Below are positions 4,334 through 22,417 of a stretch of 22,417 nucleotides of DNA, piece after piece. Source of the DNA: a virus; the IMG/VR virus record IMGVR_UViG_3300044535_003369, positions 1-22,417 of that record; one strand, 5' to 3'. The position numbers and the translations under genes are program-made. The notes beneath the pieces were generated by a model. That model was not told the origin of the DNA, did no database searches, and was given only the letters and a program-made list of their open reading frames with translations. The stretch's first letter is position 1. Every line of letters begins with the position of its first letter.

Positions 4334-4334
4334 T
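4326..4334 (+). promoter_or_regulatory. Extended -10 (TGG-TATAAT) for leaderless start at 4341
   Basis: TATAAT at 4329-4334 overlaps the GT61 stop codon, carries the upstream TG of an extended -10, and ends exactly 6 bases before ATG 4341. No Shine-Dalgarno sequence precedes that ATG. The same geometry recurs elsewhere in the window. Confidence 0.55.
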
Positions 4335-4340
4335 TAGCCA

Positions 4341-6797: not shown

Positions 6798-6799
6798 CC

Positions 6800-8532: not shown

Positions 8533-8534
8533 TT

Positions 8535-9191
8535 TTAATTTCTATACCTTTCGTGTTTTGTATTTACCCAAACCTGATCCTGAATACTCCAACCCCATTG
8601 ATAACTAACATCTACCAAAGAAAATCCAAGGTCTTGCATTATAGTCATAACCTCTAAGTTGTTTGACGGCTCTCCCCAAGCAGCCCTTTCTGGAGTTTCA
8701 GTTTCAATGTGAGCAACCAGCACGTCTTTCATCAAGTCGCCCATCCCCATAATAGTTGGAACAGAGTGTCCCTCAACATCTATTTTTAAAACATCGGTTA
8801 TTCCTGGTTCAATTATAGCATCTAGCCTAGTAACGTCGACATTAACAATTGTGCTTTCTGCTTGATACGCTTTTGATCTTATTAACTCAAGCGAAGATGA
8901 TCCCAAAAAATCTGCATCTTTCATTTTAACAAATTTAGATTTTCCAATAAAGTTAGAAACAGCTATTGGGAAAACTATAAAATTTGGATATTTCTTTTTA
9001 ATTTTATTAGCTGCAGCTTTTCTTGCCTCTATACAAATAACAGCACAATTAGCCTGATTCCCTAATTTTGATAAAATCCATTGAGCATCATCGCCATCAC
9101 GAGATCCTGCATCAATAATTCTAAGAGCATTTCCACCAAAATATTTTTGGTGTGCTTCAATAATTGGCTGAAGCCAAATCTCATTATCCAT
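8535..9191 (-). CDS. FkbM-family SAM-dependent methyltransferase, 218 aa
   Basis: RIIDAGSRDGDDAQW (24-38) is the SAM-binding motif I (Gly-rich loop with DAGSRDGDD in place of the more common G.N.G), and the diagnostic FkbM stretch DVLKIDVEGHSVPTIMG lies at 133-149. FkbM enzymes O-methylate sugars and polyketides. The ATG follows the cytidylyltransferase TAA with no gap. The glycan context suggests O-methylation of a sugar. Confidence 0.9.
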   Translation of the reverse strand: MDNEIWLQPIIEAHQKYFGGNALRIIDAGSRDGDDAQWILSKLGNQANCAVICIEARKAAANKIKKKYPNFIVFPIAVSNFIGKSKFVKMKDADFLGSSSLELIRSKAYQAESTIVNVDVTRLDAIIEPGITDVLKIDVEGHSVPTIMGMGDLMKDVLVAHIETETPERAAWGEPSNNLEVMTIMQDLGFSLVDVSYQWGWSIQDQVWVNTKHERYRN

Positions 9192-9629
9192 TTATGTGGG
9201 ATTCTGTTCGACTTGGCTGTTAATTAAAAGAGTTGTGCTAATGCCTGGCGTTCTTTGCATATAAAGCAAACTAATTCCTTGGTCATCCATCCAGGACAGA
9301 CTAGGAATTCTAAGCTGGTAAGCTAGATCACGGTCAACCCAGTCAAAACTAGCAACGTAAACATCTGGATTATTATAAACTATTTGCTCATCTTGTTTTT
9401 CTGGTCCATGCCAAAGGATAACCTCATCTGCCAATCCAGTAGCAATAACGTCATCTACACGCTCTTGCTGTGTCCTTGCAGGGACACGCTTGTACTCTGA
9501 CATAAACTTATCAGTGTTAACCGCCACTATAAGGTGGCCATCTGGGCCAGCCAATTTGCGAGCCAAAGTAAGAGCGTTTATGTGACCAGCATGAAGTAGG
9601 TCAAAACCGCCTGGGTAAAGCAGCTTCAC
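9192..9629 (-). CDS. Cytidylyltransferase-like nucleotidyltransferase, 145 aa
   Basis: GGFDLLHAGH with H13 and H16 is the HxGH nucleotide-binding motif at the N-terminus. RTPGISTT (126-133) near the C-terminus matches the RTxGISTT signature of TagD/CTP:glycerol-3-phosphate and related cytidylyltransferases. Size fits that family (~130-150 aa). It likely makes a CDP-alcohol or CDP-/ADP-sugar for glycan decoration. The TAA abuts the FkbM start and its start overlaps the GT-A gene upstream by 4 bases. Confidence 0.88.
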   Translation of the reverse strand: MKLLYPGGFDLLHAGHINALTLARKLAGPDGHLIVAVNTDKFMSEYKRVPARTQQERVDDVIATGLADEVILWHGPEKQDEQIVYNNPDVYVASFDWVDRDLAYQLRIPSLSWMDDQGISLLYMQRTPGISTTLLINSQVEQNPT

Positions 9630-10210
9630 TGTTCCCCCCAGCGACTAGCAAACAGGGCACCATCACGTGGAATGTCGTCAGCAAACATTGTTGTTCCCCA
9701 GTTTTCGTAGTCAGTTGTACGAACGTGGATAGGCTCAACTTCCGTGGCCTTGAGTCGTAGTCCAGCTTGCTTTGCACGGTGATATAGATCATCGTCACCA
9801 TGCCACCAAACAAACTGCTCATCCAGACGTATAGTTCCAGCACGAAGACCGAAGCAAGCCCCAGAAAACGGACTGTGAACATATGGGCCGTAATTTTTAG
9901 ACCAAATAAGATCGTTGTCCTCTAGCTCATCTAGAAGTTCGTTGATCATTTCAACCGACATTCCAAGGTCGTCGTTTAGTACCAGAACTGGTGCATTTGG
10001 CATTGTCTTTGTAACATAATCAATACCAAGATTCCACCAATATGTAATTGACATTTTGTCCCAGCCATCAAGCTCTATTGCTCCTGGTACTGGCTTTGCA
10101 TTCTCCCATGTTCGGACAATGACTGGTGTGATACCAGCCTCAAGAAGAATATCAATCAACGGCCAAAGAGTTTTTCTTTCAGTACGAGTTGGGATAACTG
10201 CAAAAGTCAT
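9626..10210 (-). CDS. GT-A fold glycosyltransferase, 194 aa
   Basis: The chain starts with FAVIPTRTER, a GT2-like first strand, followed by LVLNDDLGMS (NDD 79-81, the DxD-equivalent metal site) and a late WWHGDDDLYHRAKQAG (135-150), where an acidic catalytic segment is expected. At 194 residues it is a minimal catalytic domain. It is coupled by ATGA to the neighbouring GT-A gene, and the pair may act successively or as a heteromer. Donor and acceptor unknown. Confidence 0.78.
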   Translation of the reverse strand: MTFAVIPTRTERKTLWPLIDILLEAGITPVIVRTWENAKPVPGAIELDGWDKMSITYWWNLGIDYVTKTMPNAPVLVLNDDLGMSVEMINELLDELEDNDLIWSKNYGPYVHSPFSGACFGLRAGTIRLDEQFVWWHGDDDLYHRAKQAGLRLKATEVEPIHVRTTDYENWGTTMFADDIPRDGALFASRWGEQ

Positions 10211-10878
10211 TTTTGAAGTGCCTGTTTTGCAATTTGAAGACCATCCCCATCACGCCAAGTTTCAAATGCAATTCTGTCCAGCTCACGCTTGTCTTTGTCG
10301 TTAGCCTCTTGGTAGGTCTCATCATCTGGGGCTGCCTTATTCCAGCGGTGGAGGTGACTTAGTTTTACATCTGGTAGATAAATAAACTCTGTAAGCTTTC
10401 CAAGCTCTCTCCAGGCATTGTCAAGGAATAGATGTCTACTTGTTGGTAATCCTAGCCATCCTAAGCGATGATACATCTCCATCGGAACGACAACGTGTGT
10501 TGGAAGGTCCTGACCATGCAAGTGCTCTAGTCCATCGCTACCGTATACCACCCCAAGTTCAGGCAAAGCTTTTACCATTGTCTCATCCCAGCCAATTGTT
10601 TCTGGAAGAACGTCATCTCCAAGAATTGCAACGTGAGTAAAGTTTTCTTTAGATGCTATCTCTGCCAATTCATTTAAAGATGCTGTAAAGAATATCCTTG
10701 GGCCAGTAACGTACCTAACCTTTTCTAAGGCTGGATAAACGTGGTCATCATCTTCATCAATTCTTGCAAGGATTTCGTAATCTAGTTTACAAGTTTCTTT
10801 TACGGCTTTTGCCAATCTTTCTAGATTGTGAGGTCTACCACGTGTGGGAACTGTAATTGCTAATTTAAAATTACTCAT
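10207..10878 (-). CDS. GT-A fold (GT2-like) glycosyltransferase, 223 aa
   Basis: AITVPTRGRPHNLERL (7-22) is the typical GT2 first strand and P-loop-like nucleotide-binding segment. It is followed by RIDEDDD (39-45) and ILGDDVLPE (85-93), both candidate metal-binding acidic motifs. Late residues YLPDVKLSHLHRW resemble the acceptor-side helix of such enzymes. It overlaps the downstream gene and the upstream membrane protein by ATGA each. Composition is GC-richer than the plus-strand glycan genes. Confidence 0.8.
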   Translation of the reverse strand: MSNFKLAITVPTRGRPHNLERLAKAVKETCKLDYEILARIDEDDDHVYPALEKVRYVTGPRIFFTASLNELAEIASKENFTHVAILGDDVLPETIGWDETMVKALPELGVVYGSDGLEHLHGQDLPTHVVVPMEMYHRLGWLGLPTSRHLFLDNAWRELGKLTEFIYLPDVKLSHLHRWNKAAPDDETYQEANDKDKRELDRIAFETWRDGDGLQIAKQALQK

Positions 10879-11465
10879 AGCTTAATCGCCTTGGCAAATA
10901 CAACTCTAGATGCCATCTTAGAGGCGGCAATAATTGCAATAGGAGCAGCAACACTCAGGACAGTTCCTGCCCACATTCGTGGTTCAAGGTAGTTCCATTC
11001 CCAAAAATCAAAAGTGTGAAAAGCGTTAGCAAGAACAGCAATACCACCAAACATAATCATTCCAACAATAGCTCCAAAAGTTTTTTCTGGTTGTCCAGAC
11101 TCATTCATTCTAGATGCAAGAACAAGATAGGCAACCAAGAACAGCAGGTACATAAGCTCGATAAAGAAGAAGAACAGCCCTGCCATCCAAGCTTGAGATA
11201 GTCCAACAAATTGTGCTACAGCTGTAATTCCATTAAACGAAACAATTGCGGAAGAAATAAAAGCAAAGCCAATACCAATAAGCCAAGACCAAAGGATGAG
11301 CTTTTGATCAACCTGAATTCTTGGGGCACGTTTTGATTCCTGAAGCTCATATCTTTGACGCTTAGTATCTTCTACACGTCTAACAGTGGCTTCTACTCCA
11401 TTTGTATAATTTGCTCTCTCAGCAAGTAGTTTTTGTCTATCTCTAAATGACCTTGGATTACTCAT
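10875..11465 (-). CDS. Four-helix integral membrane protein, 196 aa
   Basis: A basic cytoplasmic N-terminus (SFRDRQKLLAER ... KRQRYELQESKR) of ~50 residues precedes hydrophobic helices at about 57-78, 92-118, 130-150 and 165-182. No transporter or enzyme motif is visible; the overall shape recalls SpdB/DUF2637-like four-span proteins of actinobacterial mobile elements, without a clear match. It is the first gene of the minus operon. Its position before two GT genes allows a role in anchoring the enzymes or in lipid-linked sugar handling, but this is speculative. Confidence 0.72.
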   Translation of the reverse strand: MSNPRSFRDRQKLLAERANYTNGVEATVRRVEDTKRQRYELQESKRAPRIQVDQKLILWSWLIGIGFAFISSAIVSFNGITAVAQFVGLSQAWMAGLFFFFIELMYLLFLVAYLVLASRMNESGQPEKTFGAIVGMIMFGGIAVLANAFHTFDFWEWNYLEPRMWAGTVLSVAAPIAIIAASKMASRVVFAKAIKL

Positions 11466-11474
11466 AATGATTAC

Positions 11475-11503
11475 ATTATACCACTAAAAAGAGCTTTGTC
11501 CAA
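11475..11503 (-). promoter_or_regulatory. Sigma70-like promoter of the minus-strand glycan operon
   Basis: On the minus strand TTGGAC (11498-11503) and TATAAT (11475-11480) are 17 bases apart. The -10 ends 9 bases before ATG 11465, so the transcript would have at most a few leader bases and no ribosome-binding site. It lies back to back with the Hsp20 promoter. Confidence 0.7.
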
Positions 11504-11507
11504 CTTA

Positions 11508-11516
11508 TGATATAAT
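11508..11516 (+). promoter_or_regulatory. Extended -10 promoter for hsp20
   Basis: TGA-TATAAT (11508-11516) is 59 bases before the chosen hsp20 start, leaving a leader of about 50 bases with CCTG/CAGG pairing (11524-11536) and AAGGAG. There is no good -35 at the normal distance. Confidence 0.5.
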
Positions 11517-11575
11517 ATATTTACCTGCCCAACAGGGGGGTATTTTAACTCGCTTAATACAAGGAGATGATATAT

Positions 11576-11965
11576 ATGGTTATTACAACACCATTTGGAG
11601 GACTTGGTCTAGATATTGACAAGTTCTTTAGCACAACACCAGCAACAAACACCTACCCACCATACAACGTTGTTAGGATTAATGACGACAAGATCGTAAT
11701 GGAGTTTGCGGTAGCTGGATTCAAAAAGGATGAGATCAGCATTACTGCTGAAAAAAATGTCCTATCTATAAACGCAGAAAAGCCAGACGCTGACGACAAG
11801 AAATACCTACATAAAGGTATTGCTGCTCGTAGGTTTACTCGCTCATTCTCGCTACCAGAATACTATGAGGTAGATTCCGCTGGATTTGAGGACGGTATTC
11901 TGTATGTTTATTTGGTAAGGAACATCCCAGAAGAGAAAAAGCCAAAATCAATTCGCATTCGTTAA
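11576..11965 (+). CDS. Small heat-shock protein, Hsp20/alpha-crystallin family, 129 aa
   Basis: An ATP-independent holdase chaperone. The alpha-crystallin domain spans about residues 27-120: VVRINDDKIVMEFAVAGF, ITAEKNVLSINAEK, a RRFTRSFSLPE stretch and DGILYVYLVRNIPEE, where GILxVxL is diagnostic. The C-terminus carries IRI, the IxI oligomerisation motif. I prefer ATG 11576 because AAGGAG at 11561-11566 lies 9 bases upstream. The alternative ATG 11567 touches that site. Phage sHSPs are known in T4-like cyanophages, where they may assist virion assembly. It is transcribed divergently from the glycan operon. Confidence 0.93.
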   Translation: MVITTPFGGLGLDIDKFFSTTPATNTYPPYNVVRINDDKIVMEFAVAGFKKDEISITAEKNVLSINAEKPDADDKKYLHKGIAARRFTRSFSLPEYYEVDSAGFEDGILYVYLVRNIPEEKKPKSIRIR

Positions 11966-11976
11966 AAACGATGATA

Positions 11977-12020
11977 TCCTATTGGTAGCTTAAGGTTTCC
12001 GAAAGGCCGCTACCTTAGGA
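11977..12020. ncRNA. Imperfect 11-pair stem-loop element
   Basis: TCCTA (11977-11981) and GGTAGC (11984-11989) pair with GCTACC (12009-12014) and TAGGA (12016-12020), with a 2/1 internal loop. The apical part (TTAAGGTTTCCGAAAGGCC) can fold further or offer an alternative TAAGG-CCTTA pairing. It sits between two convergent genes, so a bidirectional terminator is the simplest reading, but no U-run follows on either strand. A structured small RNA is the alternative. Confidence 0.5.
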
Positions 12021-12051
12021 GACAACCTGGGCATGTTGATAAAAGGCCTAT

Positions 12052-12768
12052 TTAATTATACCCAAGAAACTTTTTTTCAAATACATAAGGAACTTTGGGT
12101 TGATAATATTCGTTTGGATTTAAAAGGTTTTGTCTAGCACTTCTCTCTTGAAAAGTCATTTGATTAAAAAATGAAACAAAAGTAATTCTAGTACCACTTA
12201 TAACTGGATGAACCTTGTGTTCTAAATTATATGCAGAGGGAAATAAGAAAAGCTGGTTTGCTTTAGGTTTAATTTTAACTCCAAAATGAATAAAGTCTAG
12301 CTCTCCGCCTTCATAGCTGTCTGTTGGGTAATACACCATAGATGTTGTTCTGGGGGTTGCAAAAGAATCATCTGAGTGCATCCCAAAAAATTCACCAGGA
12401 CCTTCAAATTTTGTAATTCTCATAGACTCAATGCTGTGAGGCTCAAGGTTCCAGTGTGCTAGGTATGAATCTACTACCTCTTCAAATGCATTGGATATTT
12501 CTGGATGGTGTTGTATCCAGCATGTTTTGCTTTTTTTGCCATGATCTTGATCTAAATAATCTTCTCTTATCCACTTTACATCATCTTCAGGAGATGCCTC
12601 TGTTTCCCAAAAATTATCAGAGTCAATCTTATTTATAAAATCCATTGACTCAGGCCAAACATTATCATAAATGTGTACGCCTGGAATTGGAGAAGTAAAC
12701 TTAAACTTATTACCTTTTTTACTTGTTGTGACACTATTTTTGTGGTCTTCTAGCTTTGTGTGATGCAT
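12052..12768 (-). CDS. 2-oxoglutarate/Fe(II) oxygenase, 238 aa
   Basis: The P4H-like double-stranded beta-helix carries H131-x-D133 (GMHSDDS), distal H187 (HKVHPV) and R194 (SGTR), the 2-oxoglutarate-binding Arg, with GGELDF at about 154-159 as the loop usually preceding. Such enzymes hydroxylate protein side chains, small molecules or glycans. The upstream minus-strand GAGGAG is 3 bases before ATG, closer than ideal. It is a separate transcription unit from the glycan operons. Confidence 0.9.
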   Translation of the reverse strand: MHHTKLEDHKNSVTTSKKGNKFKFTSPIPGVHIYDNVWPESMDFINKIDSDNFWETEASPEDDVKWIREDYLDQDHGKKSKTCWIQHHPEISNAFEEVVDSYLAHWNLEPHSIESMRITKFEGPGEFFGMHSDDSFATPRTTSMVYYPTDSYEGGELDFIHFGVKIKPKANQLFLFPSAYNLEHKVHPVISGTRITFVSFFNQMTFQERSARQNLLNPNEYYQPKVPYVFEKKFLGYN

Positions 12769-12787
12769 AAGCTCCTCTTTATAAACA

Positions 12788-12796
12788 ATTATAGCA
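12788..12796 (-). promoter_or_regulatory. Extended -10 promoter for the 12768 oxygenase
   Basis: On the minus strand TGC-TATAAT spans 12796-12788, 19 bases before ATG 12768, leaving a short leader that contains GAGGAG. It overlaps the divergent promoter region of the 12817 gene, so the two are likely co-ordinated. Confidence 0.55.
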
Positions 12797-12801
12797 TAAC
12801 C

Positions 12802-12810
12802 TGATATAAT
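12802..12810 (+). promoter_or_regulatory. Extended -10 with leaderless ATG at 12817
   Basis: TGA-TATAAT (12802-12810) ends exactly 6 bases before ATG 12817, and there is no ribosome-binding site. The +1 would fall on or next to the start codon. Confidence 0.65.
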
Positions 12811-12816
12811 AATACT

Positions 12817-13350
12817 ATGCCATATAGTGTTGGAGAAAAAGGATCATACGGTTGCTCAGGCTACCCTGCAGTTAAGGATGACGATGGTCAGGTTATGGGT
12901 TGTCATGACACAGCTGAAGAAGCTGGGGCACAGATTGCAGCCATTGAAGCTAACGAAAAAGGTATAGGCATTAAAAATCCAGAGGAGTGGCCAGGAACTG
13001 CTATAAAGGCAGCGACAGATAAAGATGGTATGGGATCTGCTATTGGACAACCAGAACCAGCATCTAAAAAACCTTCTGCATTAAAGAAACCAAAGAAAAA
13101 GCCTAAGACAAGTGTAGGCGGCGCTGGAGGAGACCCAACTGGTGCCATCGCAACTACAAATGGCGGTTCGTCCATGGGAACTAAAGCTGATGAAAAACAA
13201 TCTCCATGCTGGGATGGCTATGTCCAGCGTGGAATGAAGCCAGGAGAAAATGGCAGAATGGTTCCTAACTGTGTTCCAGTAGCCAAGTCAGATTCAATCT
13301 GGCACAATTTCGGAAAAGATTATACATCTTCTACAACACTAAAATGGTAA
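12817..13350 (+). CDS. Small phage protein with two Cys-containing modules, 177 aa
   Basis: The N-terminal module (residues ~1-48) has YGCSGYPAVKDDDG, MGCHDTAEEAGAQIAAIEAN. This short two-cysteine fold is familiar as an accessory segment of phage prohead-protease or capsid-associated proteins. A Lys/Ala/Gly-rich disordered linker follows (KKPSALKKPKKKPK). The C-terminal module is SPCWDGYVQRGMKPGENGRMVPNCVP, a conserved CW.GY....K..GR.VPNCVP pattern of phage proteins. It may be a capsid decoration or packaging accessory. The basic linker could bind DNA. Exact role unknown. Confidence 0.78.
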   Translation: MPYSVGEKGSYGCSGYPAVKDDDGQVMGCHDTAEEAGAQIAAIEANEKGIGIKNPEEWPGTAIKAATDKDGMGSAIGQPEPASKKPSALKKPKKKPKTSVGGAGGDPTGAIATTNGGSSMGTKADEKQSPCWDGYVQRGMKPGENGRMVPNCVPVAKSDSIWHNFGKDYTSSTTLKW

Positions 13351-13353
13351 GTA

Positions 13354-14301
13354 ATGAATGAAAAAATCTTTATCAATATTGCTTCTTATAGAGATCCCAG
13401 CTTAATAATTACAATTAAGTCTGCCTTGCTTCATGCTGCTCATCCAGAAAATTTAGTTTTTGGAATTGGACTACAATATTACGATGATGAAATTCCAGAT
13501 TTAAGCTTTATAAAAAATGAAATAAGAACTTTATTCTATCATCCAGATACCAGACCAGGCGTGGTCAAAGTAAGATATGAAATTTCTGAGCTTATCGCTG
13601 ATGAAAAGTATTTTTTAATGATTGACTCTCATACACTTTTTTATCCAAATTGGGATGAAAGCGCTATTCGTAATTTGACTGCAGCAGAAAAAGAGTCGGG
13701 CCACGATAAAGTAATAGTTTCTGGTAATAACCTTCACGCTAGTGGGAAATTATTTTATTCATACATTTATAAAATAGAGGACGGCCTTGATGATTATCCT
13801 ATTTTAAATTTAATTCCTAAATATTATAAAAAAGAAAAAGAGATCTTTCAACACTATCACTTAGATTGCTCAAGCTTATTTACTTATTCAAATTTTTTAA
13901 CCGATGTTGGCCTGGATAGTCATTCAGACTTTTTACTTGAAGAGCCTTACCTTTCCTGGAAAGCCCACATTTCTGGGTGGGATGTTTACGTTCCAGAATC
14001 CTTGTATCTTTATCAGAGTCCATTTTCCTATTTTAATATTGTCTGGAATAATGATATAGAGTCTAAATCCTATATGAGAAAAGAAACTTCTCCATCAGAC
14101 AAGGATAGGGTTGACATGTTTTCTGCAATGATTTTTAATAAATCACAAACCTATTCTGCAAAAAATCAAAGAAGGTCGGAAGATTCTTTTTGGGAGTTAG
14201 TCGGACAAAAAAACTCCTTTAATAAATTAAAAAAGTCTAAAAAATTTGCTCAACAGCTAAAAAACCACAATATTTTTAATAAGGCTAGTCTAATAAAATG
14301 A
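13354..14301 (+). CDS. GlcNAc-type glycosyltransferase (PF11397-like), copy 1, 315 aa
   Basis: The N-terminus INIASYRDPSLIITIKSAL is typical of the GlcNAc transferase family that modifies Skp1-like hydroxyprolines and bacterial glycans. HPDTRPGVVKVRYEISEL and YFLMIDSHTLFYPNWD follow, with D91-S-H93 as the DxH/DxD metal motif, and LEEPYLSWKAHISGWDVYVPE later. The family usually acts on hydroxyproline, and 2-oxoglutarate oxygenases occur on both sides of it. It starts 3 bases after the preceding stop and is a tandem duplicate of the next gene. Confidence 0.85.
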   Translation: MNEKIFINIASYRDPSLIITIKSALLHAAHPENLVFGIGLQYYDDEIPDLSFIKNEIRTLFYHPDTRPGVVKVRYEISELIADEKYFLMIDSHTLFYPNWDESAIRNLTAAEKESGHDKVIVSGNNLHASGKLFYSYIYKIEDGLDDYPILNLIPKYYKKEKEIFQHYHLDCSSLFTYSNFLTDVGLDSHSDFLLEEPYLSWKAHISGWDVYVPESLYLYQSPFSYFNIVWNNDIESKSYMRKETSPSDKDRVDMFSAMIFNKSQTYSAKNQRRSEDSFWELVGQKNSFNKLKKSKKFAQQLKNHNIFNKASLIK

Positions 14302-15263
14302 ATGAAAAAATATTTATAAACATAGCATCTTTTCGTGATCCAACTTTAGGTGTTACTGTAGAATCTGCTTTAGTTAATGCAAGAAATCCAGAAAACCTTG
14401 TTTTTGGAATTGGTGCTCAATATTATGATGGAGAAATGCCATCAATTCATGTGGACCCATCTCAGCTTAAAATTATCAATTATCATCCAGATACTAGGCC
14501 AGGAGTGGTAAAAATTAGGTATGAAATTTCAAAAATGCTAACTGATGAAAAATATTTTTTAATGATTGACTCTCATGTTTTGTTTAAAAAAGACTGGGAC
14601 GTTAATGCAAAAAAATATCTTAGAAAGTTTTCAAAATTATCTGGACATGACAGGGTTTTATTTGGAGGAAAAGCCATCGATCCATTAAAAACGTCAACCT
14701 CAAGCCTTGAGTTTAAGATTTTTAAAAATGATGCTATGGATAAAGATAATAAAGGAATAGTAAAAAATGAAATAATTTTGATCGCAGAAAACACAACTTA
14801 TTCAATAGATTCTGATTTTACCCTTAATCACCATGTTAGTTGTAGCAATTTTTTTACTTATTCAAAATATATTGAAGATGTTGGGCTAGATTCAAAGTCA
14901 GAGTTTTTGTATGAAGAGCCGTATCTTTCTTGGAAAACATATGTTTCTGGATGGGATAATTATGTGCTTCACAAACCAATCATTTACCAAAATCACGAGG
15001 CTTATTTCAATATTGTTTGGCAAGGCAATTATGACAATAGAACGTATTACCGAAAAGAGTTAGAAGCTTCTGATTTTGATAAGGCAGATATAGCTTCTGC
15101 AATGATATTCAATAAATCTAAAAATTTTTCTGTAAAAAATGAAAGAAGATCTCCAGAGTCTTTTTGGGAACTTATCGGAAAAAAAGAAATGTTTGAAGAT
15201 TTAAAAAACTCAAAAGAATTTAAAGAAATTCTATCATCTTTTAATCTATTTAATCTTGACTAA
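14298..15263 (+). CDS. GlcNAc-type glycosyltransferase, copy 2, 321 aa
   Basis: Starts at ATG 14298, overlapping the copy-1 TGA. It shares the long blocks INIASFRDP, NPENLVFGIGAQYYDGE, YHPDTRPGVVKIRYEIS, YFLMIDSHVLF and SAMIFNKSKNFSVKNERR with copy 1. The section from about residue 118 to 175 differs, as would be expected for an acceptor-specificity region. The close similarity indicates a duplication followed by divergence of the middle. The stop overlaps the opposite-strand GT25-like gene by 4 bases. Confidence 0.85.
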   Translation: MNEKIFINIASFRDPTLGVTVESALVNARNPENLVFGIGAQYYDGEMPSIHVDPSQLKIINYHPDTRPGVVKIRYEISKMLTDEKYFLMIDSHVLFKKDWDVNAKKYLRKFSKLSGHDRVLFGGKAIDPLKTSTSSLEFKIFKNDAMDKDNKGIVKNEIILIAENTTYSIDSDFTLNHHVSCSNFFTYSKYIEDVGLDSKSEFLYEEPYLSWKTYVSGWDNYVLHKPIIYQNHEAYFNIVWQGNYDNRTYYRKELEASDFDKADIASAMIFNKSKNFSVKNERRSPESFWELIGKKEMFEDLKNSKEFKEILSSFNLFNLD

Positions 15264-15961
15264 ATATTTGGCAATGACTCAAATATTATTTTAGGAGATT
15301 CTTGAATCTGTGATTTTAGGTTAGTAGGATAGGTGCATATGTTTTTTACATCCCATCTTAGGGAATACCTTTTTAGATCCACGTCTTGCATAATGTATTG
15401 GTCTATAGGACTTATAACTGGCTCTTTTACTAATTCTATTAGCTTTTCTGCCGCAGGCTTAGTAATTACGTAACAAAGGGCAGACGCAATTTGATGTGAT
15501 CTTGCTATATACCCTTTTCCACAATCTAATCTATATTTTTTAAATTCTGGTAGCTTTAAGAATTCTGGGGTGTGTACAAAAAATACCTCCCAATCCTCTG
15601 GTAATTCTTTTTTATAAAAATTAAACTTATCAATAAAGTCATCATCAAGAATAATGTCGTCTTCCATGATAATTAAATAATCATAGTTGCTTTTTACAAA
15701 GTTTTCCCATGCTAGATAGGTGCTTCCCCAAATACCAAGCTCACCTATTTTCCAGCCGCTATTATAAAATCCGTTCTTGTTTATGGCAATTTCTTTATTA
15801 TTAAAAAATTCTCCAACCTCTAGATTATCTTTTAGCACAACTGTCGGAGTATGTAGCTTTGAAAAGTTTTGCAGCATGATATTATGACTTTTAGAATAAA
15901 GATCATCTCTATTGCTGCCTGGTATATGGAATATAGTAAAAGCTATATTATCTTTTGTCAT
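15260..15961 (-). CDS. GT25-like glycosyltransferase, 233 aa
   Basis: GELGIWGSTYLAWENFVKS (73-91) and LIIMEDDIILDDDF (96-109, acidic metal-binding EDD) match the LPS-type family 25 pattern. Late residues GYIARSHQIASALCYVITKPAAEKLI resemble the tyrosine/alanine acceptor loop. GT25 enzymes include galactosyltransferases of LPS and collagen-like hydroxylysine. It is a separate minus-strand unit with its own leaderless promoter, and it converges with GlcNAc copy 2. Confidence 0.82.
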   Translation of the reverse strand: MTKDNIAFTIFHIPGSNRDDLYSKSHNIMLQNFSKLHTPTVVLKDNLEVGEFFNNKEIAINKNGFYNSGWKIGELGIWGSTYLAWENFVKSNYDYLIIMEDDIILDDDFIDKFNFYKKELPEDWEVFFVHTPEFLKLPEFKKYRLDCGKGYIARSHQIASALCYVITKPAAEKLIELVKEPVISPIDQYIMQDVDLKRYSLRWDVKNICTYPTNLKSQIQESPKIIFESLPNI

Positions 15962-15967
15962 TAATAA

Positions 15968-15976
15968 ATTATAGCA
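15968..15976 (-). promoter_or_regulatory. Extended -10 with leaderless ATG at 15961
   Basis: On the minus strand TGC-TATAAT (15976-15968) ends exactly 6 bases before ATG 15961. The 29-base gap after the nuclease has no ribosome-binding site. No good -35 is present. Confidence 0.6.
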
Positions 15977-15990
15977 TGTTAATAGTTAAA

Positions 15991-16407
15991 CTAAAAACGC
16001 TTAACAGTAATAATGTATCTAACGCTATCAATAAAACCAGCTCTTACAGCAGTCTTTAACATCTTATGAGAAGATGATCCATACTTGGGCAAATCTGAAA
16101 AGTAAACTATATATTGAGTTTCTGGATATCTAGATTTTATTAGTGCAGCGTTGGCAATAGCCTTTTTAACATTGTCGGTTCTTTTAGCCCCTGGCCTTTT
16201 CCCTTCGCCCTGTAGCCCACCCTTGGCCTCAACATAAACTTGTGTACCACGAAAGTCATAAGCAAAATCAACTTCGCAACCAACATCTTTGACGGTCACG
16301 TTTTTTTGTATATCTTCTTGTCCAAACCTACCAAGGTCTTCAAGAACCTGTGATTCAAAAAGATCTCCAGAGTGCTTAGACTCTGCTTGAAAATTAGTAA
16401 TAGTCAT
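15991..16407 (-). CDS. PD-(D/E)XK-like nuclease (resolvase-like), 138 aa
   Basis: E18 in a helix, GCEVDFAYDFRG with D47, and VYVEAKGG with E60-x-K62 form a PD-(D/E)XK triad. A helical KRTDNVKKAIANAALIKSRYP segment and the strand YIVYFSDLP follow. The size and motif spacing fit VRR-NUC/Holliday-junction resolvase-type phage nucleases. It may process replication or recombination intermediates. The start overlaps the TGA of the 16559 Cys protein, and a consensus TTGACA lies upstream inside that ORF. Confidence 0.78.
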   Translation of the reverse strand: MTITNFQAESKHSGDLFESQVLEDLGRFGQEDIQKNVTVKDVGCEVDFAYDFRGTQVYVEAKGGLQGEGKRPGAKRTDNVKKAIANAALIKSRYPETQYIVYFSDLPKYGSSSHKMLKTAVRAGFIDSVRYIITVKRF

Positions 16408-16559
16408 GACACTATGGTATCAGAATTTGCAGGGTATGTCAAGCTAATTATAGGACAATAGCAATACTCTTTATATTTAATAATTTCAAAGTATAGCTCT
16501 ATTCCTATGTCATGCACCTTGCCACAATTACATTTATAGATCACCCCCAATTTTACCAA
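16404..16559 (-). CDS. Small Cys-pair (zinc-ribbon-like) protein, 51 aa, TTG start
   Basis: An uninterrupted minus-strand frame from TTG 16559 to TGA 16404 encodes MVKLGVIYKCNCGKVHD..., with a second CxC pair (YKEYCYCP) about 22 residues later. Two CxC pairs around a hydrophobic core suit a small metal-binding ribbon. The TGA overlaps the nuclease ATG as ATGA, the coupling seen throughout this window. An alternative start is GTG, which follows a G-run (TTGGGGGTG). The TTG start has no strong ribosome-binding site, and this is the main doubt. Confidence 0.55.
   Translation of the reverse strand: MVKLGVIYKCNCGKVHDIGIELYFEIIKYKEYCYCPIISLTYPANSDTIVS
16414..16442 (-). promoter_or_regulatory. Sigma70-like promoter with leaderless start for the nuclease
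   Basis: On the minus strand TTGACA (16442-16437) is 17 bases from TACCAT (16419-16414), which lies exactly 6 bases before ATG 16407. The -35 is perfect and the -10 weak. It lies inside the short coding frame that ends at the ATGA overlap, so the nuclease may be transcribed both alone and with it. Confidence 0.6.
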
Positions 16560-16581
16560 TGCTTTATGAATCTGCTATACT
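16552..16581 (+). promoter_or_regulatory. Promoter with leaderless ATG at 16588
   Basis: TTTACC (16552-16557), an 18-base spacer, and TGC-TATACT (-10 16576-16581), exactly 6 bases before ATG 16588. It overlaps the 5' end of the opposite-strand 16559 ORF. Confidence 0.6.
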
Positions 16582-16587
16582 TTAGGC

Positions 16588-16746
16588 ATGGACCTAGAAA
16601 AAGAGATTGACGCTATCCTATTTGAACTGATAAGAGATATTAAGCTATATAAGATTGATAGTGATAATACTGTTATGGATGTTGAGTATCAAAAGTATAC
16701 TGCTAAAGTTTTGAGGGTATTCATGAATTACTTAGCAGAAGAATAA
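16588..16746 (+). CDS. Small acidic helical protein, 52 aa
   Basis: A leaderless candidate: ATG 16588 sits 6 bases after a TATACT and no ribosome-binding site precedes it. The frame ends at TAA 16744. It starts MDLEKEIDAILFELIRDIKL, is helical and amphipathic, and ends NYLAEE. No function is recognised. The TAA is followed within 4 bases by the promoter of the next gene. The promoter geometry and clean frame support it despite its small size. Confidence 0.6.
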   Translation: MDLEKEIDAILFELIRDIKLYKIDSDNTVMDVEYQKYTAKVLRVFMNYLAEE

Positions 16747-16749
16747 CCC

Positions 16750-16778
16750 TTGACTTTGTCTTACGTTTCCTGTATAAT
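16750..16778 (+). promoter_or_regulatory. Consensus promoter with leaderless ATG at 16785
   Basis: TTGACT (16750-16755), 17 bases, TATAAT (16773-16778), then 6 bases to ATG 16785. This is nearly a perfect sigma70/SigA promoter and there is no Shine-Dalgarno sequence, so transcript and coding start should coincide. Confidence 0.8.
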
Positions 16779-16784
16779 TTAGCT

Positions 16785-17006
16785 ATGGAATATTGGTCAT
16801 GGATACTTGCCGTAATTGGCGTAGCTGGAATTTATTTTGTAGGAAAGAAAACTCTTTGGGGCTGGTTTGTCCTTTTATTCAATGAGGCTGTTTGGATTAT
16901 TTATGCTATCATTACAGAGCAATACGGATTTATTGTTTCAGCGTTCGCTTATGGAGCGGTATACATCAAGTCTTATCTGCATTGGAGAGAAGATGCTAAG
17001 GCTTAA
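16785..17006 (+). CDS. Small PnuC-like membrane protein, 73 aa
   Basis: Three hydrophobic segments (about 5-20, 25-45, 48-65): WSWILAVIGVAGIYFVG, KTLWGWFVLLFNEAVWIIYAI and YGFIVSAFAYGAVYIKSYLHW. The W..L..IGV.GIYF.GKK..WGW....NE..W..YA pattern resembles half of the nicotinamide riboside transporter PnuC and similar short phage proteins. It is too short for a full transporter (about 200 aa) and is likely a phage membrane protein. It is expressed from the consensus leaderless promoter. Confidence 0.75.
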   Translation: MEYWSWILAVIGVAGIYFVGKKTLWGWFVLLFNEAVWIIYAIITEQYGFIVSAFAYGAVYIKSYLHWREDAKA

Positions 17007-17024
17007 TAATAGAAGGAGCAACTA

Positions 17025-17123
17025 ATGGCTAAAATGGCAGGATTACACGCAGAGGGCTTGACAGACGCTGATCTAGCTGAGGCAGAAGCAGTAGAAATTT
17101 TAGAGTCTGTGCTGATAGATTAA
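17025..17123 (+). CDS. Very small acidic protein, 32 aa
   Basis: GAAGGAG at 17012-17018 lies 6 bases before ATG 17025. The frame ends at TAA 17121. The peptide starts MAKMAGLHAEGLTDADLAEA and continues helical and acidic to VLID. The strong ribosome-binding site argues for translation. No homologous family is recognised. It lies in the same unit as the membrane protein upstream. Confidence 0.62.
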   Translation: MAKMAGLHAEGLTDADLAEAEAVEILESVLID

Positions 17124-17131
17124 CGAATCTT

Positions 17132-17926
17132 ATGAATTACAACTATTATAATATTCCTGATGAATACGAAGAAGGAAGCTTCTTGCACGGAATGTCCATG
17201 GGGCGAGACTATGGCTATGATAAAGGTATTTTTGAAGGCAAAAAAGAAATAACTGATTTGATCCTGGGGTTCTTGCAAAACGAAATGACTGACACCATTG
17301 ATAAAAACGACTCTATAAAACAATTTTTAGTTAAGATGGATAAATTTGTGCATACAAATCTTATGCCTAACCTAGAGCCAAACCTCATAAACAATTTTAT
17401 AGAAGAAAAAGACAGGATTAGGCTTATAGAAATTATAAACGAATCAGAGTCTGCTGGCCTGCTAAAAAAATCCCCCCATGAAATGGTTCACTCAAATGAC
17501 GGCAGAATAATGCTTTGGGATTCAGAAAATCTAGAGTTTTGGAATATTGTAAAAAAATATTTAAATCAGGTTTCTAGCAATTACAAAGAAAAATTGTATC
17601 CGCATAACATCGCAATGATGAAGTATTATCCTGGCACAGGCCTGGCTTTACATACAGATAATGATGGGATTTGCAGGAAAACCTGTAGCGTGACTTCCGT
17701 TATATATCTAAATGATGATTATGAAGGCGGCGGGGTGAGCTTTCCAATAATAAATAAAGACTACAGTATGACTGCTGGCTCTATAATGCACTTTCCTCAA
17801 AAAGGTCTCCAAGCATATCATTCTGTTGGAGACCTGTTATCTGGCAACAGATATATAATTCTAACCTGCTATACAGATAATCAGTCTATCGTAAATCAAT
17901 TTTATAAAGATTTTTACAACGATTAA
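17132..17926 (+). CDS. 2-oxoglutarate/Fe(II) oxygenase (P4H type), 264 aa
   Basis: The C-terminal half has MKYYPGTGLALHTDNDG with H174-x-D176, VIYLNDDYEGGGVSF (the GGGVSF loop, about 190-204), distal H230 (AYHSV) and R240 (SGNRY), complete for an Fe(II)/2-oxoglutarate prolyl-4-hydroxylase-like fold. The N-terminal ~80 residues (YGYDKGIFEGKKEITDLILG) are helical and lack a known motif, probably substrate or partner binding. The start at ATG 17132 has no clear ribosome-binding site. It differs from the 12052 oxygenase and is not a recent duplicate of it. Confidence 0.9.
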   Translation: MNYNYYNIPDEYEEGSFLHGMSMGRDYGYDKGIFEGKKEITDLILGFLQNEMTDTIDKNDSIKQFLVKMDKFVHTNLMPNLEPNLINNFIEEKDRIRLIEIINESESAGLLKKSPHEMVHSNDGRIMLWDSENLEFWNIVKKYLNQVSSNYKEKLYPHNIAMMKYYPGTGLALHTDNDGICRKTCSVTSVIYLNDDYEGGGVSFPIINKDYSMTAGSIMHFPQKGLQAYHSVGDLLSGNRYIILTCYTDNQSIVNQFYKDFYND

Positions 17927-17944: not shown

Positions 17945-18496
17945 ATGAAAAAAGAAATTGAAGATATGAAGCTAATAACATACCCCAGATCTGGGCAAAA
18001 TCTGTTTAGAATGCTTCTTGGCCAACAGGGGCATGCAATAAGTTCTTCCCACAATACAGCGGATTTTTTAGATAAAAAACAAACTATAACAATAATAAGA
18101 AATCCAGTAGAATCTGTAGCATCTGCTATGGCTATGGTAGATTTTTATAAAAAAGAAAACGGATATGGAATAATCACTCATATGTTAAAAAAGTATGAGG
18201 AAACTTATCTCTGGCTGCTAGATAATGCAACCTATATTATTTCTTATGAAGATTTAATAGGCAGCCCTCAGGATACAGTAGAAAAATTCTTAGATCATTT
18301 TTCTTTAAAAAAATCAAGTGTTGAGTATCAACTGAACCTTTCTAAAGATGATGCAAAAGAAGGATATTTGGTAAGTTCTAAAAATCTTAACTCATACCCA
18401 GAAGCCTTAGAATATACTAAAACAGCACTCTTCATAGAAGATGCAAAAGAAATATATCAAAGGCTGTTATTTTCAAAATGGGTGGATGGAAATTGA
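17945..18496 (+). CDS. Sulfotransferase-like protein, 183 aa
   Basis: TYPRSGQNLFR (12-22) resembles the 5'-phosphosulfate-binding loop of PAPS-dependent sulfotransferases (YPKSGTT-like), and IRNPVESVAS (51-60) resembles the 3'-phosphate-binding RxP motif. SYEDLIG (100-106) matches the usual Y-E-D-L of that fold. It is shorter than the typical 250-300 aa. A GGGAG lies upstream (17932-17936). It likely sulfates a glycan or small molecule. Its 3' end overlaps the protease start as TTGA. Confidence 0.78.
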   Translation: MKKEIEDMKLITYPRSGQNLFRMLLGQQGHAISSSHNTADFLDKKQTITIIRNPVESVASAMAMVDFYKKENGYGIITHMLKKYEETYLWLLDNATYIISYEDLIGSPQDTVEKFLDHFSLKKSSVEYQLNLSKDDAKEGYLVSSKNLNSYPEALEYTKTALFIEDAKEIYQRLLFSKWVDGN

Positions 18497-19392
18497 AAAA
18501 ACTATTAGTGGCTATCGTTTCTTCAATCCTTGTACTTCAACCAATCCAATCTTTGGCAATTGAAGGTGGAGAAGAGGCAAAGAATCATCCAAGGATTGTT
18601 TCAATCGTACTTTTTAACGGAAAAAACATGTATTGGGCATGCTCAGGATTTCTTTTCGCTCCCAGAATTGTCATTTCTGCAGGGCATTGTCAATTCAGGC
18701 CATTTAGAGATAATGAAAAGTGGCCAGACACCCAGGTCTTTATCGGCTATCCAGGAAAGATTCTTAGCACCCACCGAACTGAAATCGTGCAAGCTCAAAA
18801 GGTGTTCAGCTACAAGAGTTACAACCAGATTAGAAACCTTACAGCCTATAACAATAAGGATTTCATGATTGTGGTGACCAAAGAGCCTGTTGCAAAAGTT
18901 TCCTGGGCTACTGCGGCTACCGAAGCCACATTCAAGAACTTAATCCAAGAGAAGGCGTTTGTGACCATGGGGGGATACGGATTCTCATCGGAGAAAGAGA
19001 GGTCCATGAAAATGGAAGGGTACAAGTGGCCGAGAACACTGACTTTTCCCTTTGTAGATGAGAAGCATTACAACCTTGTAATGGACAATCGTCTTGACAA
19101 ACATTATTGGCCTGCATTTACTGACCCCTATGAAAAATGGGGTTGGACAAAAACCAGTAAGAAAACTGGTGCAGGATGTGATGGAGATAGTGGAGCTGGG
19201 ATTTTTACTGAAACTGCGAACCGTTTCGTCTATGTTGGGCTAAACGCATGGCCAATAGATAGTCCGAACTGTTCTAACAGAGGTAAGTGGAATATCCATG
19301 GAGGGCTTAACAGAGTTGATCCGATTTATTATCACAGTGAGCTGCTAAATAAAGCTATAAAATACGTCAATAAAAAATTCGGCGGTAAGTAG
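18493..19392 (+). CDS. Secreted trypsin-like serine protease (S1), 299 aa
   Basis: An N-terminal signal peptide (MKKLLVAIVSSILVLQPIQS) precedes the mature start IEGGEEAKNHPRIVS. The triad is H65 (SAGHC), D123 (NNKDFMIV) and S233 (GCDGDSGAG), standard for chymotrypsin-like enzymes, with a CSGFLF...AGHC disulfide. I place the start at TTG 18493, overlapping the sulfotransferase TGA. ATG 18478 is the alternative and adds 5 residues. Secreted S1 proteases are unusual in phages. GC content is higher than in the upstream oxygenase and sulfotransferase. It ends in KFGGK, a sequence echoed at 21168. Confidence 0.88.
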   Translation: MKKLLVAIVSSILVLQPIQSLAIEGGEEAKNHPRIVSIVLFNGKNMYWACSGFLFAPRIVISAGHCQFRPFRDNEKWPDTQVFIGYPGKILSTHRTEIVQAQKVFSYKSYNQIRNLTAYNNKDFMIVVTKEPVAKVSWATAATEATFKNLIQEKAFVTMGGYGFSSEKERSMKMEGYKWPRTLTFPFVDEKHYNLVMDNRLDKHYWPAFTDPYEKWGWTKTSKKTGAGCDGDSGAGIFTETANRFVYVGLNAWPIDSPNCSNRGKWNIHGGLNRVDPIYYHSELLNKAIKYVNKKFGGK

Positions 19393-20639: not shown

Positions 20640-21167
20640 ATGAATAAAGTTGTAATAGCCATATTGGCATGCCTGTCGGTATTTGTCGGGATACTAACAT
20701 TTAGTCAGACTAGCACAAATGCTAACACAGCATCAATTGACAGGGCAGAGACTCAAAGGCTGCTTGCTCTAGAAAAGCCTACAGTAAAAATAAAGAAGAA
20801 ATATAAGAGGTCTGAGCAGCTATCCCCTAAAGATCTTAAAGCTATTTTGTATGAGGTTGGGTTTCGTGGCAGCAATTTGAAAGAGGCTTGGGCTGTAGCT
20901 ATGAAAGAGTCAACTGGCAGGCCTAGGTCTCATAATGATAATCCTGATACTGGTGATAACTCACACGGACTATTCCAGATCAACATGATTGGAAGCCTAG
21001 GTCCAGCACGACTCAAGCAATATAAGTTAGATAGTAATAAGGACCTGTTTAATCCATTGGTGAATGCTAAGATTGCTTTTCAGATGTCAAATGGTGGAAA
21101 GAACTGGTCTGGCTGGAACGGCATTGGAAGTTCGACGACAAAATGGTTTAAAGAATATCCAGACTAA
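20640..21167 (+). CDS. Lysozyme-like/transglycosylase, exported, 175 aa
   Basis: Residues 1-22 form a signal peptide or anchor (KVVIAILACLSVFVGILTF). The lysozyme-fold domain (about 60-175) has AWAVAMKEST with probable catalytic E90, NSHGLFQINM (107-116) and LFNPLVNAKIAFQMSNGGKNWSGW, as in soluble lytic-transglycosylase-like phage and Rpf-related proteins. The start is 3 bases after the NlpC/P60 stop with no ribosome-binding site, so translation is probably coupled. Immediately beyond its TAA is an in-frame KFGGK-stop remnant. Confidence 0.86.
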   Translation: MNKVVIAILACLSVFVGILTFSQTSTNANTASIDRAETQRLLALEKPTVKIKKKYKRSEQLSPKDLKAILYEVGFRGSNLKEAWAVAMKESTGRPRSHNDNPDTGDNSHGLFQINMIGSLGPARLKQYKLDSNKDLFNPLVNAKIAFQMSNGGKNWSGWNGIGSSTTKWFKEYPD

Positions 21168-21273: not shown

Positions 21274-21471
21274 ATGGAAACCACTAAAAGAAGTTTAATC
21301 AAGACCCTTAGCTGGGAATTCGTACACCTTGTTATCATAGCAGGAGTGATCTTCGTAATCACAGGAGAATGGGAATATGCTACTTTTGGAGCACTTATCT
21401 ACATCGCATGGGAAGCTCTGGCATATTTCATCCATGAGCGTATCTGGTCTAAGTTCGTAAAGATTAAGTAA
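21274..21471 (+). CDS. DUF2061-like small membrane protein, 65 aa
   Basis: METTKRSLIKTLSWEFVHL, a hydrophobic span (VIIAGVIFVITGEW), then a second span (TFGALIYIAWEALAYFI) and the ending HERIWSK match the K-R-S-x-x-K-x-x-S-W ... T-G-x ... Y-x-x-H-E-R-x-W pattern of DUF2061 membrane proteins. Function unknown in the family. It has its own strong promoter and is followed one base later by another small ORF. Confidence 0.85.
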   Translation: METTKRSLIKTLSWEFVHLVIIAGVIFVITGEWEYATFGALIYIAWEALAYFIHERIWSKFVKIK

Positions 21472-21679: not shown

Positions 21680-21716
21680 ATAATTTTCGGGGGGTATTAA
21701 AACGAGCCTTCGTAAT

Positions 21717-21743
21717 CCCTAGTATAAGATATAACCCCTAGTA
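21717..21743. repeat. Two direct CCCTAGTA boxes upstream of the 21779 promoter
   Basis: CCCTAGTA occurs at 21717-21724 and 21736-21743, starts 19 bases apart. It lies just upstream of the expected -35 position of the next promoter, which suits an activator or repressor pair. Confidence 0.4.
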
Positions 21744-21763
21744 GGAATACATGGTGGTTTTCC

Positions 21764-21778: not shown

Positions 21779-21862
21779 ATGACAAATGACCAAATCGTGA
21801 TATGCCTGACAATCCTATTTGGCGTTTGTACTGTCATATTATTGTATCTCAATAAGCGATAA
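21779..21862 (+). CDS. Tiny single-span membrane protein, 27 aa
   Basis: The frame from ATG 21779 ends at TAA 21860. It starts MTNDQIVICLTILFGVCTVI and ends LYLNKR: a short polar N-terminus, one hydrophobic helix and a basic end, as in a small transmembrane peptide. The leaderless promoter arrangement matches several others in the window. It could be a regulatory peptide or toxin-like membrane peptide; this cannot be decided. Confidence 0.55.
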   Translation: MTNDQIVICLTILFGVCTVILLYLNKR

Positions 21863-21908
21863 CCGCCTAGCCGAAGATCCAAATACCCCCAAATTTTATA
21901 GATCATTA

Positions 21909-21930
21909 ATTTGTGTGAACGCACGAAAAA
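21909..21930. repeat. Palindromic repeat copy 1 (origin flank)
   Basis: ATTTGTGTGAACGCACGAAAAA-type element (written in parts: ATTTGTGTG, AAC, GCACGAAAAA). It matches the second copy at 20 of 22 positions, and its core is an imperfect palindrome (GTG...CAC). Confidence 0.65.
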
Positions 21931-21969
21931 TACCATTTTTACATCTTTTGGACTAACAAAATTAAAAGA

Positions 21970-21991
21970 ATTTGTGTGTACACACGAAAAA
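21970..21991. repeat. Palindromic repeat copy 2 (origin flank)
   Basis: The core GTGTGTACACAC is a perfect 12-base palindrome flanked by ATTT and GAAAAA as in copy 1. Copies start 61 bases apart, close to six helical turns, so both would face the same side of the DNA. The second copy directly abuts the first DnaA box. Confidence 0.65.
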
Positions 21992-21992
21992 G

Positions 21993-22087
21993 TTATACAC
22001 ATATTTGATAAGTTATTCACAAGTTATCCACATATACATCTTACTGTGGATAAAAGTATTTGGCTATTTGTGGATGGTTGTGGAGAG
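21993..22087. other. DnaA-box cluster
   Basis: TTATACACA (21993-22001), TTATTCACA (22013-22021) and TTATCCACA (22024-22032) are direct boxes, the last perfect. TGTGGATAA (22045-22053) is a perfect inverted box, and TGTGGATGG (22069-22077) and TGTGGAGAG (22079-22087) are weaker inverted ones. Six boxes in 95 bases with opposite orientation around a centre near 22038 strongly resemble a bacterial oriC-like initiator array. Confidence 0.8.
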
Positions 22088-22133
22088 ATATGGTGAATAG
22101 AACATCTGGGGCTGAGGATCGTAATGCTGCGGA

Positions 22134-22215
22134 GTATACCACACCTTGACCAAATTGTCAAATACTGTTTTCCTGTATACCACATATCCATCAAATTGTC
22201 AAATACTGTATACTA
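22134..22215. repeat. 41-base tandem repeat, two units
   Basis: Units at 22134-22174 and 22175-22215 each begin with GTATACCACA and contain the 18-base CAAATTGTCAAATACTGT at the same offset (22151 and 22192). The 7 bases between and the last 6 diverge. These behave as iterons or a double operator beside the DnaA boxes. Confidence 0.7.
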
Positions 22216-22222
22216 ATTTGCT

Positions 22223-22319
22223 CCAATTTGGCATATAAAAACATATAATAATATCCCCAATTTGGGATAAAATATTTGATAATCGTAATCTTATTTTAAG
22301 AAACATATCCCATATTTGG
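22223..22319. repeat. CCAATTTGG quasi-palindromes in AT-rich DNA
   Basis: CCAATTTGG occurs at 22223-22231 and 22257-22265, and CCATATTTGG at 22310-22319. The middle copy is flanked by TATCCC/GGGATA inverted arms (22252-22269). The core is the inverse complement of the CAAATTG in the 41-base units (22150, 22191), so they may form one binding-site family. Confidence 0.5.
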
Positions 22320-22353
22320 GGAAAAATCCAAAGGGTTCGTAATGTATATTATA

Positions 22354-22417
22354 CTAGAGGGATTTGTTATCCAAGGTGTCTTCAATACCCTGGGAATCTG
22401 CAGCCTGCGGCTGCTGC
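22354..22417 (-). CDS. 3' end of a minus-strand gene (partial)
   Basis: On the minus strand a frame enters from the right edge and ends at TAG 22354-22356. It gives 20 C-terminal residues beginning QQPQAADSQG and ending LDNKSL, a Gln/Ala-rich tail with GC-richer composition than the adjacent origin. A plus frame from ATG 22342 (MYIILEGF...) is also open to the edge and is the alternative. The minus reading has the more protein-like composition. No function assigned. Confidence 0.42.
   Translation of the reverse strand, partial: QQPQAADSQGIEDTLDNKSL

Follow-up and report, generated by a model that had tools for sequence, protein, structure and literature searches.

Background

A lytic phage that encodes a polymerase and a helicase is usually expected to supply the initiator as well, or else to begin replication at a promoter. 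The lambda ori and the primary origin of T7 are both transcription-assisted, lambda working through its O protein and T7 through its own RNA polymerase. The basal unwinding module of bacteria combines one DnaA box, or more often two in tandem, with no fewer than three 3'-NAN-5' trios on the strand captured by DnaA, and the spacer between box and trios measures at most 16 bp (PMC8287927). In the Helicobacter pylori notation the trios are written as 5'-NTN-3' downstream of the box, and GAC is one of them (PMC8235120). For phage T5, an injection-stop region is described in which DnaA boxes occur together with palindromes, repeats and inverted repeats (PMC13250531). Phages with DnaA boxes are already known, and arrays of three boxes are frequent in viral contigs.

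Here we surveyed a non-coding element of an uncultured phage and of its relatives. On the sequence comparisons given below, it is rather likely that this element serves large lytic phages as replication origin and that host DnaA opens it, with transcription probably helping.

The analysed sequence and its gene surroundings

The window, i.e. the whole stretch of DNA which was analysed, has 22,417 bases and represents a complete IMG/VR record; it is a linear fragment whose end lies 64 bp past the origin-like stretch at 21863-22353. Its genes include those for a WhiB regulator (306-635), an SLT_3 lysozyme and an NlpC/P60 protein that matches tail-lysin families of phages. With whiB on this viral contig, the fragment comes from a WhiB-encoding tailed actinophage. 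Freshwater Actinobacteriota of low GC, among them 'Ca. Nanopelagicales', are the likely hosts. In freshwater actinophages whiB is treated as a marker (PMC6802176, PMC10202952, PMC10914622); the gene was found on 35 of the 45 element-bearing contigs, and among the control genomes Corynebacterium glutamicum alone was positive. As the terminase family phrog_2 was matched in just 6 of the 45 contigs, the phage identity is grounded in the IMG/VR origin, the tail and structural genes and WhiB.

The final large gene ahead of the element codes for an SLT_3/lysozyme-like transglycosylase, a late (lysis) gene (20640-21167, plus strand; Pfam SLT_3, E=1.4e-18), which was used as the anchor for finding relatives (L002-L040). 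It is followed by a gene for a DUF2061 membrane protein (21274-21471, plus strand; PF09834, E=7.6e-12) and by an ORF for a 27-aa membrane-type peptide, MTNDQIVICLTILFGVCTVILLYLNKR (21779-21862, plus strand), read from the sequences of the window and of the close relative L003. This ORF forms the left border of the non-coding stretch and a similar frame is present in L003. The stretch at 21863-22353 is AT-rich, with 32% GC, and lacks a convincing gene. In the closest relatives the element is placed between convergent gene blocks.

Some other contents of the window and its relatives were also recorded. The region 3203-17926 is dense in sugar and modification cargo, with glycosyltransferase 61, a fusion of nucleotidyltransferase and HAD, and further frames that look like transferases or small heat-shock proteins. 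Positions 16795-16954 match Arthrobacter phage Jasmine in a PnuC-like gene, and a secreted trypsin-like protease (PF00089), an unusual phage cargo, lies in the late region at 18478-19392. Genes for tRNA-Leu(TAA) are found close to the element in near relatives (L003 13057-13130, L249 7164-7237, L005 2131-2205).

DnaA boxes, triplets and the C-free zone of the window

The exact DnaA box TTATNCACA occurs at four non-coding sites which together span 61 bp, and at no other place in the 22,417 bases. Three copies are on the plus strand, TTATACACA at 21993-22001, TTATTCACA at 22013-22021 and TTATCCACA at 22024-22032, and one is inverted, TGTGGATAA at 22045-22053 on the minus strand. The second and third copies are the upstream and the proximal member of a conserved tandem pair, and the family alignment was numbered from the proximal one (position 0). 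A further two boxes, weak and inverted, are TGTGGATGG at 22069 and, 10 bp on, TGTGGAGAG at 22079. All six boxes named in a preliminary description of this DNA (three direct and one inverted exact, two weak) were hence located, and scanning of the whole contig returned exact boxes only in the 61-bp cluster. When the whole window was dinucleotide-shuffled 1000 times, the maximum was two boxes per 61 bp, reached in 4 shuffles; for the 491-bp region, shuffled 2000 times, it was one box. One-mismatch boxes are at background in the window (34 found against 30 expected), so the signal is that of the exact cluster.

Five nt past the proximal box begin three NTN triplets, ATC-TTA-CTG (22038-22046, plus strand; 3'-NAN-5' on the bottom strand), which are DnaA-trio-like and near-invariant in the family; the order in the window is TTATCCACA-GATAA-ATCTTACTG. 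In the sub-lineage of the window (L003, L141, L249, L276) the triplet run ends after ATC-TTA-CTG, and the inverted box TGTGGATAA replaces the further triplets. Set against the bacterial basal unwinding module, which allows up to two mismatches in boxes usually in tandem up to 3 bp apart, the pair at 22013 and 22024 is exact with a 2-bp gap. The trio part (at least three consecutive trios within 16 bp of the box) is present in its bare minimum of three at 22038-22046. The preferred trio is 3'-GAT-5', and the window reads TAG-AAT-GAC, in which the first (3'-TAG-5') differs from the preferred 3'-GA-; some relatives have CTA (= GAT).

The triplets are followed by a C-free zone of GTGGA-type repeats (22047-22101, plus strand) with 1 C and 19 G in 55 nt by base counts, and both weak inverted boxes sit inside it. 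The motif TCGTAAT stands at a family-conserved position (22119-22125, plus strand), with further copies at 21710, 22283 and 22337. The copies in the gap share one orientation, and some relatives have 40-50-nt units with GGGGAAAA ahead of the motif. In several loci it lies near the starts of leftward promoters, and it was also seen in L003 at about 11970-13000 and in L201. The equivalent gap of Streptomyces phages Faust and Annadreamy has TTACGATGG, the reverse complement of the TCGTAAT motif. The non-coding region of the window is flanked by CTAGTATAAGATATA (21713-21745) and its inverted partner TATATTATACTAG (22337-22357), about 610 nt apart, each of which adjoins a TCGTAAT.

Distribution of the element in viral contigs

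Among the relatives found through the lysozyme gene, L003, L004, L005 and L007 have the box array at the matching place and share the downstream ATAnATCTTACTG, followed by GTGGAGA...TGGnGAA. A degenerate 19-base core pattern, TTATNCACANATANATNTTACTG, was scanned over IMG/VR and gave at least 119 stretches, which with the earlier loci make at least 106 distinct sequences. Because the core pattern itself fixes some bases, independent anchors were also run. The GTGGAG repeats as sole anchor gave 105 distinct loci, with TTACTG upstream in 91, an exact DnaA box at offset 44-47 in 75 and the tandem pair kept in 71; the remainder is mostly one unrelated sequence family. With the tandem boxes as sole anchor, 116 distinct loci were obtained; 57 lead directly into TTACTG, several others lead into TTACTA, and the rest are unrelated viral sequences. 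Judged by these alignments, the compact layout is shared by a hundred or more related phage contigs (at least about 110 distinct true loci). A triple DnaA-box array was tried as family signature and was given up as too common (at least 120 matches, most of them without the TTACTG element).

The core scan of 257 Gb of GTDB bacterial and archaeal genomes gave 4 matches. L279 alone carries the remaining element, and the other three (L278, L280 and L281), in which it is missing, were rejected as chance matches. L279 is contig CANGYR010000020.1 (22.9 kb) of a freshwater Chitinophagaceae (Bacteroidota) MAG; it shares TAATCCCTAGTATAAGATATAA with the window and is perhaps a misbinned actinophage.

The order of parts in the family is tandem boxes 2-3 bp apart, 5 bases, ATCTTACTG, an AT-rich run with T at every third base, GTGGA-type repeats (10-nt period, 30 nt), a short gap, TCGTAAT at an approximately constant place and a G-poor stretch. 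In 28 non-redundant elements, T recurs at +24, +27, +30 and +33, in register with the core. At positions left free by the pattern the on-minus-off difference for T is 0.34 (shuffle s.d. 0.058; reached in 0 of 5000 shuffles), and six or more triplets are present in 17 of the 28. Unrelated viral tandem-box sites show no triplet excess (12/340 against 26/340 in shuffled sequences). The C-free zone is found in 28/28 elements, with 0-3 C against 12-22 G, and the family top strand has 2.7% C from +23 to +77.

This regularity bears on one alternative, that the stretch is only a spacer between convergent genes where unrelated terminators, promoters and chance DnaA boxes have come together. The convergent gene blocks around it in the closest relatives, and the terminator-like hairpin and promoters inside it, would suit such a spacer, but order and spacing are conserved across sequences less than 80% identical and the shuffle tests also argue against chance, which leaves this the least credible of the readings considered. 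For the DnaA core it is effectively refuted, and it is possible only for the 22-base palindromes and the CCAATTTGG repeats.

The element is single-copy in 21/21 contigs with a core match. A protein-coding reading was rejected, as a frame stays open through 150 nt in just 6/27 elements and in differing frames. An RNA reading was rejected likewise: no conserved fold was found on either strand of the 28 elements, and the window region gave no Rfam match. Extra tandem DnaA pairs without TTACTG were observed near early genes (G013:101860, G018:110505 and 2190, G001:15337-15445); these are possibly DnaA-regulated promoters or secondary origins.

Promoters, repeats and palindromes

A tandem repeat with 41-bp period (22134-22168 and 22175-22209; 86% identity over 35 nt) had been noticed in the preliminary description and taken for iterons. 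The repeat is indeed there, and each unit holds a leftward promoter of the form TTGACA-17-TATAC[T/A]. Promoter 1 (22133-22161, minus strand) has -35 TTGACA at 22156-22161, 17 nt and -10 TATACT at 22133-22138; promoter 2 (22174-22202, minus strand) has -35 TTGACA at 22197-22202, 17 nt and -10 TATACA at 22174-22179, and both are of sigma-70 type. The iteron reading was dropped, since the units are duplicated leftward promoters and strong leftward promoters are a family trait. A mechanical promoter count in the window alone is non-significant (2 found against 6.2 expected), and the significance comes from the family comparison only.

In that comparison, a minus-strand promoter with at least 11 of 12 consensus bases between +80 and +320 was found in 64 of 87 non-redundant loci (0.9% of shuffles; 1/87 on the opposite strand), and 51 of the 64 are perfect TTGACA-17-TATAAT. 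It is located 130-240 nt to the right and points back across the element. It is retained in 14 of 22 loci in which the nearest genes are convergent and no leftward gene needs it.

Such a promoter facing the boxes in most loci, along with the tandem boxes near early genes in G013, G018 and G001, where DnaA may regulate, could also suit a second alternative: that the element is a DnaA sink (datA-like titration), or a regulator of the leftward promoter or of a non-coding transcript, and not an origin. Titration needs boxes alone, whereas here the order of spacer, triplets and C-free zone is held at fixed distances, and one copy per contig with 2-4 boxes makes a weak sink. A regulatory transcript would go poorly with the missing RNA fold and Rfam match reported above. 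We regard this alternative as unlikely.

Two 22-base palindromic copies were described 61 bp apart, and they are present at that distance: copy 1 at 21908-21930 is imperfect, copy 2 at 21969-21991, TTTGTGTGTACACACGAA, is near-perfect, and the two are 91% identical by repeat search. As a core feature they did not hold, because among close relatives they occur only in L249 and are not found in L003. By the alignments they are lineage-specific, unlike the deeply conserved boxes and following parts. The CCAATTTGG-type quasi-palindromes were located at 22223, 22257 and 22310, and one of them is a terminator-like hairpin, TATCCCAAATTGGGGATA (22252-22269, minus strand, leftward), identical in L003.

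The AT-rich filler words of the gap vary by lineage at matching places, being ATTTGG-type in the window (22134-22330), L003 (12300-13050) and L007, and AAACCT/GGTTTG-type in L004 (11850-12371) and L005 (3400-4200). These lineage-switched words resemble a binding-site family with changed specificity.

Replication genes and GC skew

The Bac_DnaA_C domain and PolA were each found in 0/36 contigs. A DnaB-type helicase was found in 10/17 and PolIII-alpha in 11/17 of the longer contigs, and ribonucleotide reductase is also present on long contigs; neither PolIII-alpha nor helicase was found in the closest long relative, G001, a fragment of 54.9 kb. The element, the helicase and the polymerase are mutually distant in the genome. 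The proposal that the locus is an origin recruiting host DnaA agrees with its conservation in relatives and with phage replisome genes occurring without a DnaA gene, from which we infer the function. A bacterial chromosomal oriC, which adjoins dnaA/dnaN-type genes, does not fit, as the genes around are those of a phage.

It had also been suggested that the region belongs to a phage-plasmid, i.e. that it is a maintenance origin of iteron/Rep type. AT-rich DNA in which direct repeats adjoin DnaA boxes does resemble iteron plasmid origins. Against this, ParA (ParA-type AAA_31) and tyrosine integrase were both absent in 20/20 long contigs, which points to lytic phages, and the 41-base units are promoters and not true Rep-bound iterons. 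Rep, DnaN and partition families were found in none of the L003 genes tested right of the element, and 72,556 plasmids gave no full-length match. A maintenance origin is hence very improbable.

A minimum of cumulative GC skew had been predicted at the element, and the result was the reverse: in three long relatives the cumulative curve has its maximum at the element or close by. The maximum is non-decisive and gives no independent support, because it follows the convergent gene direction.

Proposed mechanism and significance

Opening by host DnaA is proposed because the family has the sequence definition of the basal unwinding module and unrelated tandem-box sites lack the triplet run. Host DnaA would bind the boxes, and a DnaA filament would extend from the proximal box onto the bottom-strand triplets, leading to duplex opening. 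The C-free strand and its G-free partner could form no G-C hairpins once open and would thus give clean single-stranded DNA, ready to receive the phage's own DnaB-type helicase. Leftward transcription may aid the opening or provide the first primer, after which phage PolIII-alpha would copy the genome. The GTGGA repeats may act as weak inverted DnaA boxes capping the bubble. These phages would then probably start DNA copying by imitating the host chromosome origin.

We see an even chance that a large, hitherto undescribed group of lytic actinophages carries a viral DnaA-box/DnaA-trio unwinding module, at which host DnaA opens the genome for a phage DnaB/PolIII replisome, with the facing promoter and the C-free landing strip as additions which are not known from bacterial origins.

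If this is true, host DnaA is the initiator of the viral genome in many uncultured freshwater-type actinophages and phage replication is tied to the host cell cycle. The dataset would then supply more than 100 natural origin variants for testing the requirements of the trio motif, and a sequence signature for locating replication origins in metagenomic phages. It would also give a common frame for the unexplained DnaA boxes of T5-like and Streptomyces phages.

Comparison with known systems

No full-length match of the element was found in 50,697 phage records, and among the titles and abstract openings of the open literature on DnaA-trio with bacteriophage, no title concerns such a phage origin. 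DnaA boxes were seen in the phage collection in T5-like, Streptomyces, Microbacterium, Carnobacterium and T7-like phages and in one microvirus. Arrays of them in non-coding gaps of cultured or assembled phages, mostly unannotated, were noted in L458, L459, L460, L309, L308, L311 and L310, covering a microvirus, Carnobacterium phage, Berlinvirus, Squashvirus, Stanwilliamsviridae and T5-like phages.

The Streptomyces phages Faust and Annadreamy (Stanwilliamsviridae; L308, L311) and Microbacterium phage Squash (L309) have AGTTATCCACAGGNTTATCCACA in a non-coding gap with leftward genes adjoining, and Faust and Annadreamy likewise carry repeats rightward. All three differ from the window in having no TTACTG triplets or GTGGA repeats after the boxes and in their repeat families; in Squash the boxes stand at the genome end.

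The T5-like phage vB_SenS_UTK0009 of Salmonella (Demerecviridae; L310) has TTATACACA-GGTT-ATCCTACTG in a non-coding gap, like the window element. Beyond ATCCTACTG the alignment is limited to the DnaA-box part, and hosts and surrounding genes differ. This likeness brings in the strongest rival to the origin, a T5-like injection-stop signal, at which DNA entry would pause between the first-entering early genes and the rest. The T5 region has DnaA boxes in combination with palindromes and repeats (PMC13250531), and the window contains all three. The tandem boxes are matched by T5-like Salmonella phages, with L310 close to the window sequence, and small leftward genes form a block of about 10-12 kb next to the actinophage element. 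The palindromes, however, are not conserved in the family, whereas the triplet periodicity, the C-free zone and the promoter are, and a passive stop needs none of these. Such a signal is of low probability. Either the T5 site is also an origin-like module, or the window element also controls entry.

With lambda ori and the T7 primary origin, the candidate origin described here shares a promoter across the origin, and in place of the O protein or a phage RNA polymerase it has DnaA boxes and a sigma-70-type promoter. It is also close to the basal unwinding module, as in Bacillus subtilis (boxes #6/#7 and DnaA-trios) and H. pylori (ts boxes and trios) (PMC6669920, PMC8287927, PMC8235120, PMC10721633). 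Shared with it are the tandem boxes 2-3 bp apart, the spacer of less than 16 nt, the AT-rich start and the 5'-NTN-3' run downstream of TTATCCACA, equal to 3'-NAN-5' on the bound strand. Unlike the bacterial module, the element stands in a phage setting without dnaA/dnaN, its ATCTTACTG is near-invariant, its trios are mostly not the preferred 3'-GAT-5' (and only three in the window), and it is extended by GTGGA repeats in a C-free zone and by a promoter facing it.
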